Of a stretch of DNA of 24,243 nucleotides, positions 3,819 to 16,197 are shown one piece after another. Origin of the DNA: a virus. A program made the position numbers and the translations under genes. Positions within the stretch are counted from its first letter, which is position 1; every line of letters begins with the position of its first letter. The notes beneath the pieces are model-generated. The model did not search any database. It was not told the DNA's origin and saw nothing but the letters and a program-made list of their open reading frames with translations. The DNA lies in IMG/VR virus record IMGVR_UViG_3300048785_000006, positions 1 to 24,243 of that record; one strand, given 5' to 3'.

Positions 3819-3826
3819 CATAAATA
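3819..3826 (+). promoter_or_regulatory. Late promoter-like box CATAAATA inside a start-sequestering hairpin
   Basis: A one-mismatch late box lies 36 bases before the GIY-YIG endonuclease start. ATAAGTA at 3824-3830, overlapping the 3' end of the box, is complementary to TACTTAT at 3857-3863, which includes the A and T of the start codon. RNA read through from gp4 would contain both arms; RNA started at this promoter would begin about where the left arm ends and so leave the start codon free. This resembles the control known for T4 I-TevI and gene e. Confidence 0.55.
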
Positions 3827-3861
3827 AGTATATCATCTATATTGAAAACGGAGGATTACTT

Positions 3862-4731
3862 ATGTATCATATTGTTTATCTTACAACAAATCTTATTAAC
3901 AACAAAATCTATGTTGGTGTTCATTCACCTACAAATCTTGATGATGGATATTTTGGGTCAGGAAAAGTGTTGAAATGGGCAATTAGAAAATACGGTAAAG
4001 AAAATTTTAAAAGACAAATACTTCATTACTGTTTAGATGTAGAACATGCGTACACTATAGAAACACAGATAGTTGATGATTGGTTCATCAATCGTAAAGA
4101 TACTTATAATTGCTTTTTAGGTGGTAAAGGTAATAGATGTAACAAACATACAGATATTTCTAAAGCTATTATAAAGGAAAAAAGAAAACTACAAGTAATG
4201 AAACCAATGTCAGATGAACATAAAAAAAGATTATCTATATTATTCACTGGAAGAGAAGTTAGTGATGAACAAAGAAAAAAACAAAGTGAAACAATAAAAG
4301 AAAAATATAAAAATGGATATAAACAATCTGAAGAGTCTATACTGAAATGTAAAGAAACTAAAAAGAGAAATGGTTATGTTGTATCTGAAGAAACAAGAAA
4401 CAAAATGTCTGAAAATGGTGCAGGTAAATATGAAAGAACACAAGAACATAGAGATAAAGTTTCCAAATTCCACAAAAATAAACAACTAAGTACTGAAACT
4501 AAAGATAAAATGTCATTAGCATCAAAAGGAAAATCTAAAAGTGAAACACATAAAAATAATTTGGCTAATGCAAATAGGGATGAGATAAAAAGGAAAGAAC
4601 ATTCAGATAGATTAAAAGGTAGGATAGCGATAAACAATGGAGTTAATAACAAATATATTGATCCAATGTTATTAACTGAATATATTGTCAATGGATGGAT
4701 TCTAGGGGTTAAGAAAAATGTTTCAATATAA
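3862..4731 (+). CDS. GIY-YIG homing endonuclease with NUMOD3-type repeats
   Basis: A 289-residue selfish nuclease that cuts an intron- or intergene-less homologous site and is copied in by repair. The catalytic domain (about 1-95) has IVYLTTN (4-10), IYVGV (16-20), the YFGSGK segment (30-35), IRKYG (41-45), Glu67 and the YNCFLGG segment with Asn83. The rest is a Lys-rich DNA-binding tail with repeated NUMOD3-like units (PMSDEHKKRLS, EVSDEQRKKQS, VVSEETRNKMS, LSTETKDKMS, KSETHKNNL). A strong GGAGG site (3850-3854) supports the start. The gene is far more AT/AAA-rich than its neighbours, as expected for a mobile gene. Its last 14 bases overlap the next gene's start, so it sits neatly between gp4 and that gene. 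Confidence 0.9.
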   Translation: MYHIVYLTTNLINNKIYVGVHSPTNLDDGYFGSGKVLKWAIRKYGKENFKRQILHYCLDVEHAYTIETQIVDDWFINRKDTYNCFLGGKGNRCNKHTDISKAIIKEKRKLQVMKPMSDEHKKRLSILFTGREVSDEQRKKQSETIKEKYKNGYKQSEESILKCKETKKRNGYVVSEETRNKMSENGAGKYERTQEHRDKVSKFHKNKQLSTETKDKMSLASKGKSKSETHKNNLANANRDEIKRKEHSDRLKGRIAINNGVNNKYIDPMLLTEYIVNGWILGVKKNVSI

Positions 4732-5152
4732 TAATGTCTACTACTATCGTTATGTCCCTGTTACTCTAGGAACTATTCATATCTATGATCAATTTCCTCT
4801 AGTAATACCACTAGAGATAAAAGGGCAGATTATGTTAGCTTGCAATTTGCATTGGATTCCTGGAGTTCTTCGTAGAAAGTTCGTACAAGTAATTGTAGAT
4901 ATGAAAAGAAAGTGTATCAACCAGTCAATGTTTCATCTATGGTACAGAACTATTAAGTATCAACCACCACTACAGTTCGCTCTACAAGCTGTAAGAAAGT
5001 ATTACATGTCACGTTGTACTAATGTAAAACTAATTGATCAAAACCATTGGGATATGTTGACTGTAGTAAGCGGTTCTCTCTATAAGGCCAGGTATTTACA
5101 GCGAAGTAAACACGATGTTACTAGACACATTCTAAGAGACAATAGAAGATAA
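4718..5152 (+). CDS. Conserved phage protein, paralogue of the gene at 19332
   Basis: I do not know its function. The 144-residue protein shows YYRYVP (9-14), HIYDQFPLVIPLE (21-33), NLHWIPGVLRRKF (43-55), a later LQAVRKYY helix near 89-96 and a basic C-terminus. The same elements in the same order occur in the protein at 19332 (FRYKA, LHVYDKVPII, NFHWIP, RRKF, LQAIRMYY), so the two are paralogues. Proteins with this layout (an aromatic start, a PLV strand, an N-x-HW/Y-x-P turn, an R-rich helix) recur in T4-type phages of several hosts; a virion or DNA-packaging role is plausible from its place between gp4 and portal gp20 but is not shown. It overlaps the upstream endonuclease by 14 bases and the opposing minus-strand gene by 21 bases, tail to tail. 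Confidence 0.75.
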   Translation: MFQYNNVYYYRYVPVTLGTIHIYDQFPLVIPLEIKGQIMLACNLHWIPGVLRRKFVQVIVDMKRKCINQSMFHLWYRTIKYQPPLQFALQAVRKYYMSRCTNVKLIDQNHWDMLTVVSGSLYKARYLQRSKHDVTRHILRDNRR

Positions 5153-5854
5153 AAGTGTATCTATGTTCTTGAATTCTGTATACGGAATTCTAGTAAGGGT
5201 TATGTTATTTTTGATACAGAAATTATTTTTAAGTTCATCTCTATACTTAACAAGTTCAAAATTTTTAGCACATGTTTCATCTGATTTGTCAGAACTAAAA
5301 CTTGTTGGAACAAAATGTTGAATACCATCATACTCAATACAGATGTTATGATCTGGAAGATAGAAATCAAATGGTATAGGATATTTATCTCTACAATCTA
5401 CAAATCTATGTTCTTGTATGAAGCTTATGTTGTTATCCAATAGAAAACTTCTTATGTATGATTCTCCCTTGGAAGATTTACATATCTTACAACCATGAGT
5501 CAAATGATTGTGTGGACTTTGTTCAAATACACCATGTATAGGACAAATGATTTTAACTTTTCTATCATACCCTGTATACTCTACTAAAGAGTAATCAAAC
5601 TTATAACCATGAGATTCTATTGCTTTAGCAATCCATTCTTCAGTTGATAACTTTGAGTTGTTCACACACTTAGAGCATCCAATACCTTGTAGGTGACTAT
5701 AAGATTTCTGCTCAAAGACTCTATGTATGGAGCAAATAATTTTAACTTTTGCATGTGAATTAGTGTACTCAACTTGTGAATAGTCATACTTGTTGTTGTG
5801 AATTTCATTTGCTCTTGAGACAAATACTTTTGTTGTAAGTTTTTTGGTAGACAT
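5132..5854 (-). CDS. Minus-strand homing endonuclease: zinc-finger repeats plus Vsr-like nuclease domain
   Basis: A 240-residue protein. I chose the start at 5854 (MSTKKLT) because GGAGAG lies eight bases before it; the longer open frame lacks such support. Two repeats of about 63 residues (YDYSQVEY...KVKIIC..H..FEQ...HL...GC.KC and YDYSLVEY...KVKIIC..HGVFEQ...HL..GC.IC) have Cys/His sets at C41/H44/C60/C63 and C104/H107/C122/C125, zinc-binding treble-clef units of the DUF723 kind. The C-terminal domain (about 130-228) has E131, PFDF with D163, ICIEYDG with E174 and D176, QH at 179-180 and KYRDE, typical of Vsr/EDxHD-type homing nucleases. It is the only clear minus-strand gene here and has its own late promoter, sitting between the paralogue gene and the portal gene. 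Confidence 0.88.
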   Translation of the reverse strand: MSTKKLTTKVFVSRANEIHNNKYDYSQVEYTNSHAKVKIICSIHRVFEQKSYSHLQGIGCSKCVNNSKLSTEEWIAKAIESHGYKFDYSLVEYTGYDRKVKIICPIHGVFEQSPHNHLTHGCKICKSSKGESYIRSFLLDNNISFIQEHRFVDCRDKYPIPFDFYLPDHNICIEYDGIQHFVPTSFSSDKSDETCAKNFELVKYRDELKNNFCIKNNITLTRIPYTEFKNIDTLLSSIVS

Positions 5855-5948
5855 TACTTGACTCTCCATAAATAAGATGTGACAAGGACAGCAGTTTCTC
5901 CATACTGTTTCCACTTGATTGCGAGTCAGTGGATTACTTGTTCACTAG

Positions 5949-5956
5949 TATTTATA
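5949..5956 (-). promoter_or_regulatory. Minus-strand late promoter TATAAATACT for the homing endonuclease
   Basis: Read on the minus strand, TATAAATACTAG is a near-ideal T4 late promoter 95 bases before the endonuclease start. ATAAATA of the box (5955 to 5949) is complementary to TATTTAT (5874 to 5868), which lies directly before the ribosome binding site GGAGAG (5867 to 5862). A T-G pair extends this to eight. A weaker extra pairing, TGACTC with GAGTCA, also covers part of the ribosome binding site. Confidence 0.75.
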
Positions 5957-15369: not shown

Positions 15370-15390
15370 GTAATGATTCTATGAACTTAG

Positions 15391-15422
15391 AGCATAATCT
15401 AGTAGGGGTTATGCTTTTTTTT
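15391..15422 (+). terminator. Terminator after gp21, T tract fused to late promoter
   Basis: AGCATAA (15391-15397) pairs with TTATGCT (15409-15415), followed by eight T. The last T of the tract is the first base of the TATAAATA box. Confidence 0.75.
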
Positions 15423-15429
15423 ATAAATA
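15422..15429 (+). promoter_or_regulatory. Late promoter TATAAATACT for HNH endonuclease and gp22
   Basis: A perfect late box with the favoured ACT extension. TATAAATACT (15422-15431) is an exact ten-base complement of AGTATTTATA (15517-15526), which overlaps the second to fifth codons of the endonuclease gene. Read-through RNA from gp21 could therefore fold over the start, while RNA begun here would lack the upstream arm. Confidence 0.85.
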
Positions 15430-15457
15430 CTTTTAAGTTATTAGTTTGATTAAAAAG

Positions 15458-15487
15458 GACTGTCACGATATTGGCGTATCTACAGTC
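15458..15487 (+). other. Leader hairpin upstream of the HNH endonuclease
   Basis: GACTGT (15458-15463) pairs with ACAGTC (15482-15487), with an inner GATA/TATC stem (15467-15470 with 15477-15480). It lies between the late promoter and the strong AGGAGGT site (15500-15506), so it would be present in late RNA. Confidence 0.45.
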
Positions 15488-15513
15488 TCTAACCTAAACA
15501 GGAGGTCAGCTTC

Positions 15514-16197
15514 ATGAGTATTTATATTCAAAAAGTAGAAGAGATTGCTCTTTCAAATAAGTATACAAAGTGGTATCTGAACATTTGTAGAAATGCAAAT
15601 AAAAGATGTACCAATAGAAAAGATGCTAAACAGTTATTGGGATATACAGAAGCTCATCATGTCCTTCCTAAATGTTTTAAAATAGGTGGAGAGAAAGATA
15701 AAGAAAATTTAGTTTACCTTTCTGGAAGAGAACATTTTATTATTCATTGGTTAGCCACTAAAATGTTTGAGAATACATCAAAATCTAAATTATCATATGC
15801 ATTTAAACTTATGTGCAACAAATCTAAAAGATATAACATTAGAATTACTAGTATGGCATATTCAGCATTAAAGAAGATGAAGATGCCTAGAACAAAAGAA
15901 CATAGTATGAAAATTGGTGCTTCACATAAAGGTAAACTAAGTCCATTTAAAGATTTACCATTATCAGAAGATACTAAATATAAGATGAAAGAAGCGTGGA
16001 AATTAAGAGATAAAGATTTAATGTCTGAAAAGATAAGAAATACTAGAAAAGAAAGAAATATTCCTGCTCCAAATAAAGGAATACCACATACAGAAGAAAC
16101 TTTAGAAAAAATGAGAAAGCCTCGTTCAGAAGAAGCAAAAGCTAATATGAGAGGTGCTAAACAAAGAAAAAGAGATTTATTAAATTTAGGTCAATAA
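15514..16197 (+). CDS. HNH homing endonuclease with NUMOD3-type repeats
   Basis: A 227-residue selfish nuclease lying between gp21 and gp22. The HNH core is EAHHVLPKCF (46-55) with His48/His49, then Asn65 in ENLVYLSGREHFIIHWLA, with His74 and His78, the beta-beta-alpha metal finger. The C-terminal part is Lys-rich with NUMOD3-like repeats (PRTKEHSMKIGASHKGK, LSEDTKYKMKEAW, PHTEETLEKMRK, PRSEEAKANMRG). A perfect AGGAGGT site supports the ATG at 15514. The gene uses AAA and AT-ending codons much more than gp21 before it and the later part of gp22 after it. It probably targets a site in or near the gp21-gp22 junction of related phages lacking it. Confidence 0.9.
   Translation: MSIYIQKVEEIALSNKYTKWYLNICRNANKRCTNRKDAKQLLGYTEAHHVLPKCFKIGGEKDKENLVYLSGREHFIIHWLATKMFENTSKSKLSYAFKLMCNKSKRYNIRITSMAYSALKKMKMPRTKEHSMKIGASHKGKLSPFKDLPLSEDTKYKMKEAWKLRDKDLMSEKIRNTRKERNIPAPNKGIPHTEETLEKMRKPRSEEAKANMRGAKQRKRDLLNLGQ

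Follow-up and report, generated by a model that had tools for sequence, protein, structure and literature searches.

A putative antisense RNA family over the translation starts of homing endonuclease genes in T4-like phages

The DNA analysed here, a stretch of 24,243 nucleotides from an IMG/VR virus record (IMGVR_UViG_3300048785_000006) that is referred to below as the window, is part of a T4-like phage contig and also carries gp23. Between the genes for the prohead protease (gp21) and the scaffold (gp22) lies a plus-strand gene (15514-16197) for an HNH/NUMOD3 homing endonuclease of 227 amino acids, which matches phrog_655 (E 2.2e-34) and, above the cut-off, NUMOD3. Its identity as a MobE-like HNH homing endonuclease is given both by this family match and by its insertion relative to an empty site in L015, a relative with a gp21 that is 83% identical, in which gp21 and gp22 are present without an endonuclease between them. 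The comparison with this empty site (GATTAAAA / TTTTAGGTCAATAA) places the inserted cassette, which comprises leader and open reading frame, at approximately 15454-16186 of the plus strand, and the final codons of the endonuclease (LGQ-stop) come from the resident spacer. Also resident are the sequence AAGTTAT..GATTAAAA and, upstream of it, the gp22 promoter, a plus-strand late-promoter octamer (TATAAATA, 15422-15429) with a predicted +1 near 15435; L015 shares the spacer TATAAATACTAGTAAGTTAT..GATTAAAA, and the cassette starts 3' of the promoter, at about 15454. Just 5' of this promoter, after gp21, a hairpin followed by a T run resembles an intrinsic terminator (15389-15417, plus strand), with a 12-pair stem for which 0.2 are expected in shuffled sequences.

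In a preliminary description of this DNA, the gene was singled out for a ten-base complement between its late promoter and its first codons. The two segments, TATAAATACT at 15422-15431 and AGTATTTATA at 15517-15526, are indeed perfect reverse complements; the second lies directly 3' of the start codon (ATG, 15514-15516), and a leader hairpin (GACTGT...ACAGTC, 15458-15487) and the plus-strand Shine-Dalgarno sequence AGGAGG (15500-15505) are both present, as had been reported. Perfect ten-base inverted pairs spaced by 30-120 nt are not rare in the window, where nine distinct ones occur, this one included, so that the pair by itself proves little; in shuffles of 15400-15560, such a pair arose in 10 of 400 cases, and the last two bases of the arms (CT/AG) can be due to chance. 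Chance does not account for the octamer TATTTATA that follows the ATG, since 116 of the 127 related leaders keep TATTTA within 14 nt past the start codon, compared with 0-2 of about 125 in windows of equal size further into these genes. The two arms also differ in origin, because the promoter is resident, being already there in the endonuclease-less L015, and the complement after the ATG arrived with a cassette that begins downstream of it.

Several HNH relatives, found by their proteins, have the same order of elements, namely a late promoter, a hairpin, TCTAAC..CTA, AGGAG, ATG and then TATTTAT. A scan with the pattern TCTAACNCTAN{2,6}AGGAGN{4,10}ATG, from which the promoter, the hairpin and TATTTAT were left out, yielded many more, and a covariance model of the sense strand that spans only the part from the hairpin to the ATG (R1) matched at least 92, at least 21 and at least 60 sequences in three locus sets. 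After clustering, at least 127 non-redundant leaders remained for the family counts. The leaders are restricted to endonuclease genes of T4-like phages, where they precede GIY-YIG, HNH and other endonuclease genes. Among 113 downstream proteins scanned, 69 matched phrog_314 and 46 matched phrog_655, besides other HNH and endonuclease families, and nearly all of those inspected singly were endonuclease-like. The T4-type major capsid protein (gp23) was found in all seven of the searched leader contigs of at least 100 kb. Two jumbo T4-like contigs carry the leader in many copies, 13 in the IMG/VR contig of L130 (G007, 360,683 bases) and nine in that of L067 (G029, 329,321 bases), and the downstream genes that were read in these contigs are endonuclease-like and mostly unlike one another. 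In L294 (211-1146), a leader-bearing endonuclease-like protein continues in frame into a head-closure domain of the gp4-like kind (phrog_218, residues 174-311), and in L281 (150-260), on a contig with other leader copies, the leader is followed by a very short frame (MSTI, then stop), which looks like a decayed endonuclease gene whose leader was kept.

Cultured phages are represented as well. A copy with both promoters was found in Rhizobium phage RHph_I1_18, before a GIY-YIG-like gene that begins with TTG followed by AC-TATTTAT; this copy lies at 80302-80359 of MN988519, with the RNA on the minus strand, and came from a BLAST search of named phages with leader DNA, which is an insensitive method. 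In Variovorax phage V45v66 and Pseudoalteromonas phage XG4, both reached through protein matches, the RNA core is present and the minus promoter is not well placed. All three phages have the T4-type capsid protein. With strict filters, the covariance model R3 (described below) found no copy in a T4 genome, Citrobacter phage Merlin or several cyanophages; these absences are soft, because the strict-filter search also missed the weak copy of RHph_I1_18. Of 119 pattern matches in bacterial genomes from GTDB, 80 (L315-L394) were searched and none held a copy, the best score being 16.8 bits (E 0.12). Against Rfam 15, the window gave no match at the gathering threshold and 12 loci gave no notable match at E<=1. 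The novelty of the family was judged from Rfam 15 and the open-licence literature.

The position of the conserved structure, its conservation, its covariation and its strand-specific wobble pairs were observed on the antisense strand. R3, a model that was built without the window, recovers the window on the minus strand at 15510-15458 with 51.9 bits (E 4.8e-11), the next best hit scoring 8.4 bits. In this core, the predicted fold consists of a 5' hairpin (15489-15509, CUGACCU-CCUGUUU-AGGUUAG), which overlaps the complement of the Shine-Dalgarno sequence, and a 3' hairpin (15458-15487), which is the leader hairpin mentioned above and is made of stem1 (GACUGU/ACAGUC), an internal loop and stem2. 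After the last hairpin follows the U-rich tail CUUUUUAAUCA (15447-15457, minus strand), a predicted 3' end, and family-wide the 14-nt tail is A-rich in the sense strand, that is U-rich in the antisense strand (0.53 versus 0.38 in the background). In an alignment of 95 antisense sequences, 95.2% of the cells are paired, and each of the 16 pairs has changed on both sides; double-changed cells number 345 versus 92 in shuffles, and none of 500 shuffles reaches the observed count. An alignment of 45 sequences is paired in 97.5% of its cells and in 100% of those of the 5' helix and stem1, and stem1 has double changes at every pair. Read as antisense RNA, the 5' helix runs without interruption over 8 bp (CUGAUGCU/AGCGUUAG) and is paired in 45 of 45. 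In the antisense alignments, none of 500 shuffles and no slide gave as much covariation as was observed, although the leader sequences are related and the shuffle counts are therefore not probabilities.

Which of the two strands carries the functional RNA can be read from the wobble pairs. An A.C mismatch on one strand corresponds to a G.U pair on the other. In the sense reading, stem1 has 25 A.C cells against one G.U (22 against one among distinct stems), and the 5' helix has 56 A.C against three G.U; as antisense RNA, stem1 has 550 Watson-Crick pairs, 20 G.U and no A.C. This bias is conservative, since the model that collected the sequences was a sense model and should have favoured G.U. The antisense strand also folds more stably, with a mean minimum free energy of -18.0 versus -12.9 kcal/mol for the sense strand (coding controls, -7.4 and -6.5), and does so in 122 of 127 leaders (p 4e-22). 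The leader had initially been modelled as a sense-strand structured RNA (R1), a reading that the wobble bias and the folding stability disfavour. A stable antisense fold under selection, as expected of control by a cis-antisense RNA, is thus present. The 25:1 strand bias in wobble pairs offers a reusable test for the strand of a functional RNA in overlapping transcript pairs.

The minus strand also has a predicted promoter for such an RNA. The late-promoter octamer TATAAATA lies at 15519-15526 of the minus strand, within codons 2-5 of the endonuclease gene, and five nucleotides after it follows the predicted antisense +1, a G at 15513, in the geometry of T4 late promoters, whose core is (N)ATAAATA. 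The family arrangement on this strand is ATAAATA - 5 nt - G(CUG), and the predicted start is GCUG in 107 of 121 members; in the window, as in a T4-type late promoter of a T4-like phage, (N)ATAAATA stands about 5-6 nt before the +1. In cyanophage S-PM2, the late promoter has been reported to be NATAAATA (PMC2984593). Conservation of the promoter is independent of the reading frame. TATTTA follows the start codon at an offset of two nucleotides in 81 leaders, one in 15 and zero in 14, and is thus kept in all three frames; among the 84 genes that encode MxIY, 79 use ATT-TAT (32% expected) and all 84 have T as the third base of codon 2 (35% expected). A protein-level constraint on 'MxIY' was considered as the cause and is ruled out by the three frames and the codon choice. 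The conserved CAGC and TATTTA are separated by 5 nt in 75 of 113 leaders, though the ATG shifts inside this gap. On the plus strand, 5 nt separate the promoter from the start of the hairpin in 70 of 121 leaders, a distance from which that of the window differs. The base before ATAAATA depends on the strand, being mostly G or T on the plus strand (A in 4 of 99) and A in 32 of 78 cases on the minus strand, where it is constrained by codons. The preliminary description was right about a late-promoter match on the minus strand inside the gene; where it saw no gene for this promoter to serve, there lies a conserved antisense RNA, and in the family the opposing promoter is positioned for its RNA to cover the translation start.

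The reading that we consider likely is that two late promoters converge on the leader and that the minus-strand one drives an antisense RNA of about 65 nt, which covers the Shine-Dalgarno sequence and represses translation of the endonuclease. The sequence after the ATG would be a T4-type late promoter that forms part of a portable homing-endonuclease cassette. During late transcription, the plus-strand promoter would produce the endonuclease mRNA, and the minus-strand promoter an RNA that runs from the base before the ATG (about 15513) through the Shine-Dalgarno sequence to about 15447 and terminates past its second hairpin with the U-rich tail. In the window, this predicted RNA (GAAGCUGACCUCCUGUUUAGGUUAGAGACUGUAGAUACGCCAAUAUCGUGACAGUCCUUUUUAAUCA) has two hairpins, the first of which overlaps the anti-Shine-Dalgarno sequence, and the U-rich tail, with a folding energy of -15.8 kcal/mol. 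It is complementary to the Shine-Dalgarno sequence and most of the 5' region of the mRNA, so that pairing with the leader would block initiation and would keep the endonuclease scarce despite strong late transcription. The firing of the minus promoter, the ends and termination of the RNA and repression by pairing are what we infer from the sequences, which suggest that the antisense RNA probably restrains these selfish, DNA-cutting endonucleases. Points against this reading are the strand-dependent base before ATAAATA, the poorly placed or missing minus promoter in two of the three cultured phages and the unusual distance of the plus promoter in the window. The complementarity of the arms would then be a by-product, since two convergent promoters with one consensus are reverse complements of each other.

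The preliminary description had explained the complement by a switch: in RNA reading through from gp21, the promoter segment would pair over the beginning of the coding sequence and so mask the start, which late RNA, lacking the 5' arm, would leave free. Control of this kind, the type of I-TevI, Aeh1 mobE and gene e, is well documented for T4 endonucleases (PMC2988022, PMC3014915), and a short RNA (15422-15530) does form the arms, with probabilities of about 0.97-1.0 across most pairs; with the real upstream sequence from the end of gp21, however, the arms pair with probabilities of 0.07-0.32, and the start is almost equally exposed in both RNAs, its opening costing 10.1-11.5 kcal/mol in the read-through RNA versus 10.5 in the late RNA. 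Sequestration confined to the read-through RNA is therefore not what the folds give. In the family, the pairing of bases -1 and +8 is slightly above shuffles (46 versus 38 +/- 4, wobble included). Among 111 relatives, arm pairing exceeds 0.5 in 37, but its median is 0.06, and the read-through effect shifts by just 0.3 kcal/mol when a shuffled hexamer takes the place of TATTTA. Nor do relatives show the compensatory changes that a switch would leave, as leaders with a CTAAATA promoter have TATTTAT in 17 of 19 cases and TATTTAG in none. From these three results it follows that TATTTA does not track the plus promoter. The terminator-like hairpin just 5' of the plus promoter should moreover limit read-through from gp21, and in T4 gp21 too belongs to the late genes, so that an early/late contrast is not needed here. 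We regard the switch as quite improbable.

It is also conceivable, if unlikely, that the minus promoter and its RNA form the 5' leader of an upstream gene that points the other way, the promoter having been displaced into the endonuclease gene when the cassette inserted. Of 83 loci, 45 have a minus-strand frame as the longest one upstream, minus-strand frames often begin 15-100 nt away, and T4 endonuclease genes are known to contain promoters of their neighbours (PMC2988022). The features are the same, however, in the 24 loci, the window among them, whose upstream gene has the orientation of the endonuclease gene: TATTTA is present in 23 of 24, as in 41 of 45 with an opposite-strand neighbour, and stem1 has four A.C and no G.U. 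This argues against the antisense RNA being simply a neighbour's leader, as does its predicted end in a terminator-like hairpin; in about half of the family loci, those with an upstream gene on the minus strand, the transcript might additionally serve as that gene's leader. Least of all do we expect UAUUUA after the AUG to act in the mRNA, as an RNase E site or an aid to ribosome entry, with hairpins that stabilise the sense mRNA. The transcripts of segB, segG and Aeh1 mobE are known to be processed by RNase E (PMC2988022), and the sense mRNA would start at the hairpin, but the wobble bias and the folding stability favour the antisense strand and the spacing of TATTTA is fixed to CAGC rather than to the AUG.

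Control by a convergent antisense RNA, as preferred here, has counterparts in other mobile elements. In IS10/Tn10, RNA-OUT, a 69-nt antisense RNA from the opposite strand, covers the translation initiation region and blocks initiation for the transposase, and control rises with copy number (PMC5006887). Like the RNA-OUT:RNA-IN pair, the phage module sits on an enzyme gene of selfish DNA and would yield an RNA of about 65 nt, with convergent promoters and several cross-complementary copies per phage. The likeness is one of design, with repression inferred for the phages; their RNA differs from RNA-OUT in having two hairpins, a fixed plan of sequence and structure and T4-type late promoters, and, unlike in IS10 with its transposase, a single module accompanies endonucleases of unrelated protein families. 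FinP of F-like plasmids is a two-stem-loop antisense RNA complementary to the traJ ribosome-binding site, where it likewise blocks initiation (PMC5415839), and thus resembles the phage RNA, with its two hairpins against the ribosome-binding site of the target, although FinP is a plasmid regulator and is stabilised by FinO. In T4-like phages themselves, CfrI of cyanophage S-PM2 is an antisense RNA that overlaps a homing-endonuclease gene (PMC2984593); compared by description, it differs in its length of about 225 nt, its link to psbA and its lack of a described leader family. The window protein belongs to the MobE-like HNH endonucleases (phrog_655), and the T4 genome searched with R3 is without such a leader RNA. 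The hairpins that sequester the ribosome-binding sites of I-TevI, I-TevII, I-TevIII, segB, Aeh1 mobE and gene e (PMC2988022, PMC3014915) are alike in that an RNA structure next to a late promoter would, in the phage leaders too, govern late translation of an endonuclease, but those hairpins act in cis in read-through mRNA, whereas here the conserved structure is on the opposite strand.

Candidates for hairpins of the cis-acting kind were also seen. At the GIY-YIG endonuclease gene that starts at 3862 of the window, the octamer CATAAATA stands at 3819 and its ATAAGTA (3824-3830) complements TACTTAT over the ATG; the segment 3819-3864 has the classic geometry of read-through sequestration on a small scale. 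At an HNH gene in L011 (2960-3020) and L014 (895-935), with TATAAATATACCTA ... TAGGTATG, a 5' arm that spans -5 to +1 relative to the late promoter pairs over the ATG, which makes it a good candidate for control of the I-TevI type. A second endonuclease gene of the window (phrog_559, 5132-5914, minus strand) has a leader flanked by two late-promoter octamers that face each other at a distance of about 90 nt (TATAAATA at 5956-5949, minus; CATAAATA at 5867-5874, plus), with a hairpin between them. The RNA models gave no match at this leader (5867-5956), which may be an independent instance of the same convergent-promoter design.

Within one phage, the antisense RNA of one copy is predicted to pair strongly with the leaders of the others, with mean energies of -51 to -70 kcal/mol versus -18 for control segments, so that regulation in trans is possible. 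That the portable family forms a regulon, in which each copy pairs with the other leaders of the same phage, is a tentative proposal; if true, it would mean multicopy inhibition like that of IS10 and possibly the exclusion of incoming rival endonucleases in coinfection. If transcribed, these RNAs would be an uncatalogued family of small RNAs of T4-like phages that is common to unrelated selfish endonucleases (GIY-YIG, HNH and others). If the proposed control is true, it would show how endonuclease genes curb their own expression under strong late transcription, and that control modules move among endonucleases independently of the enzyme.
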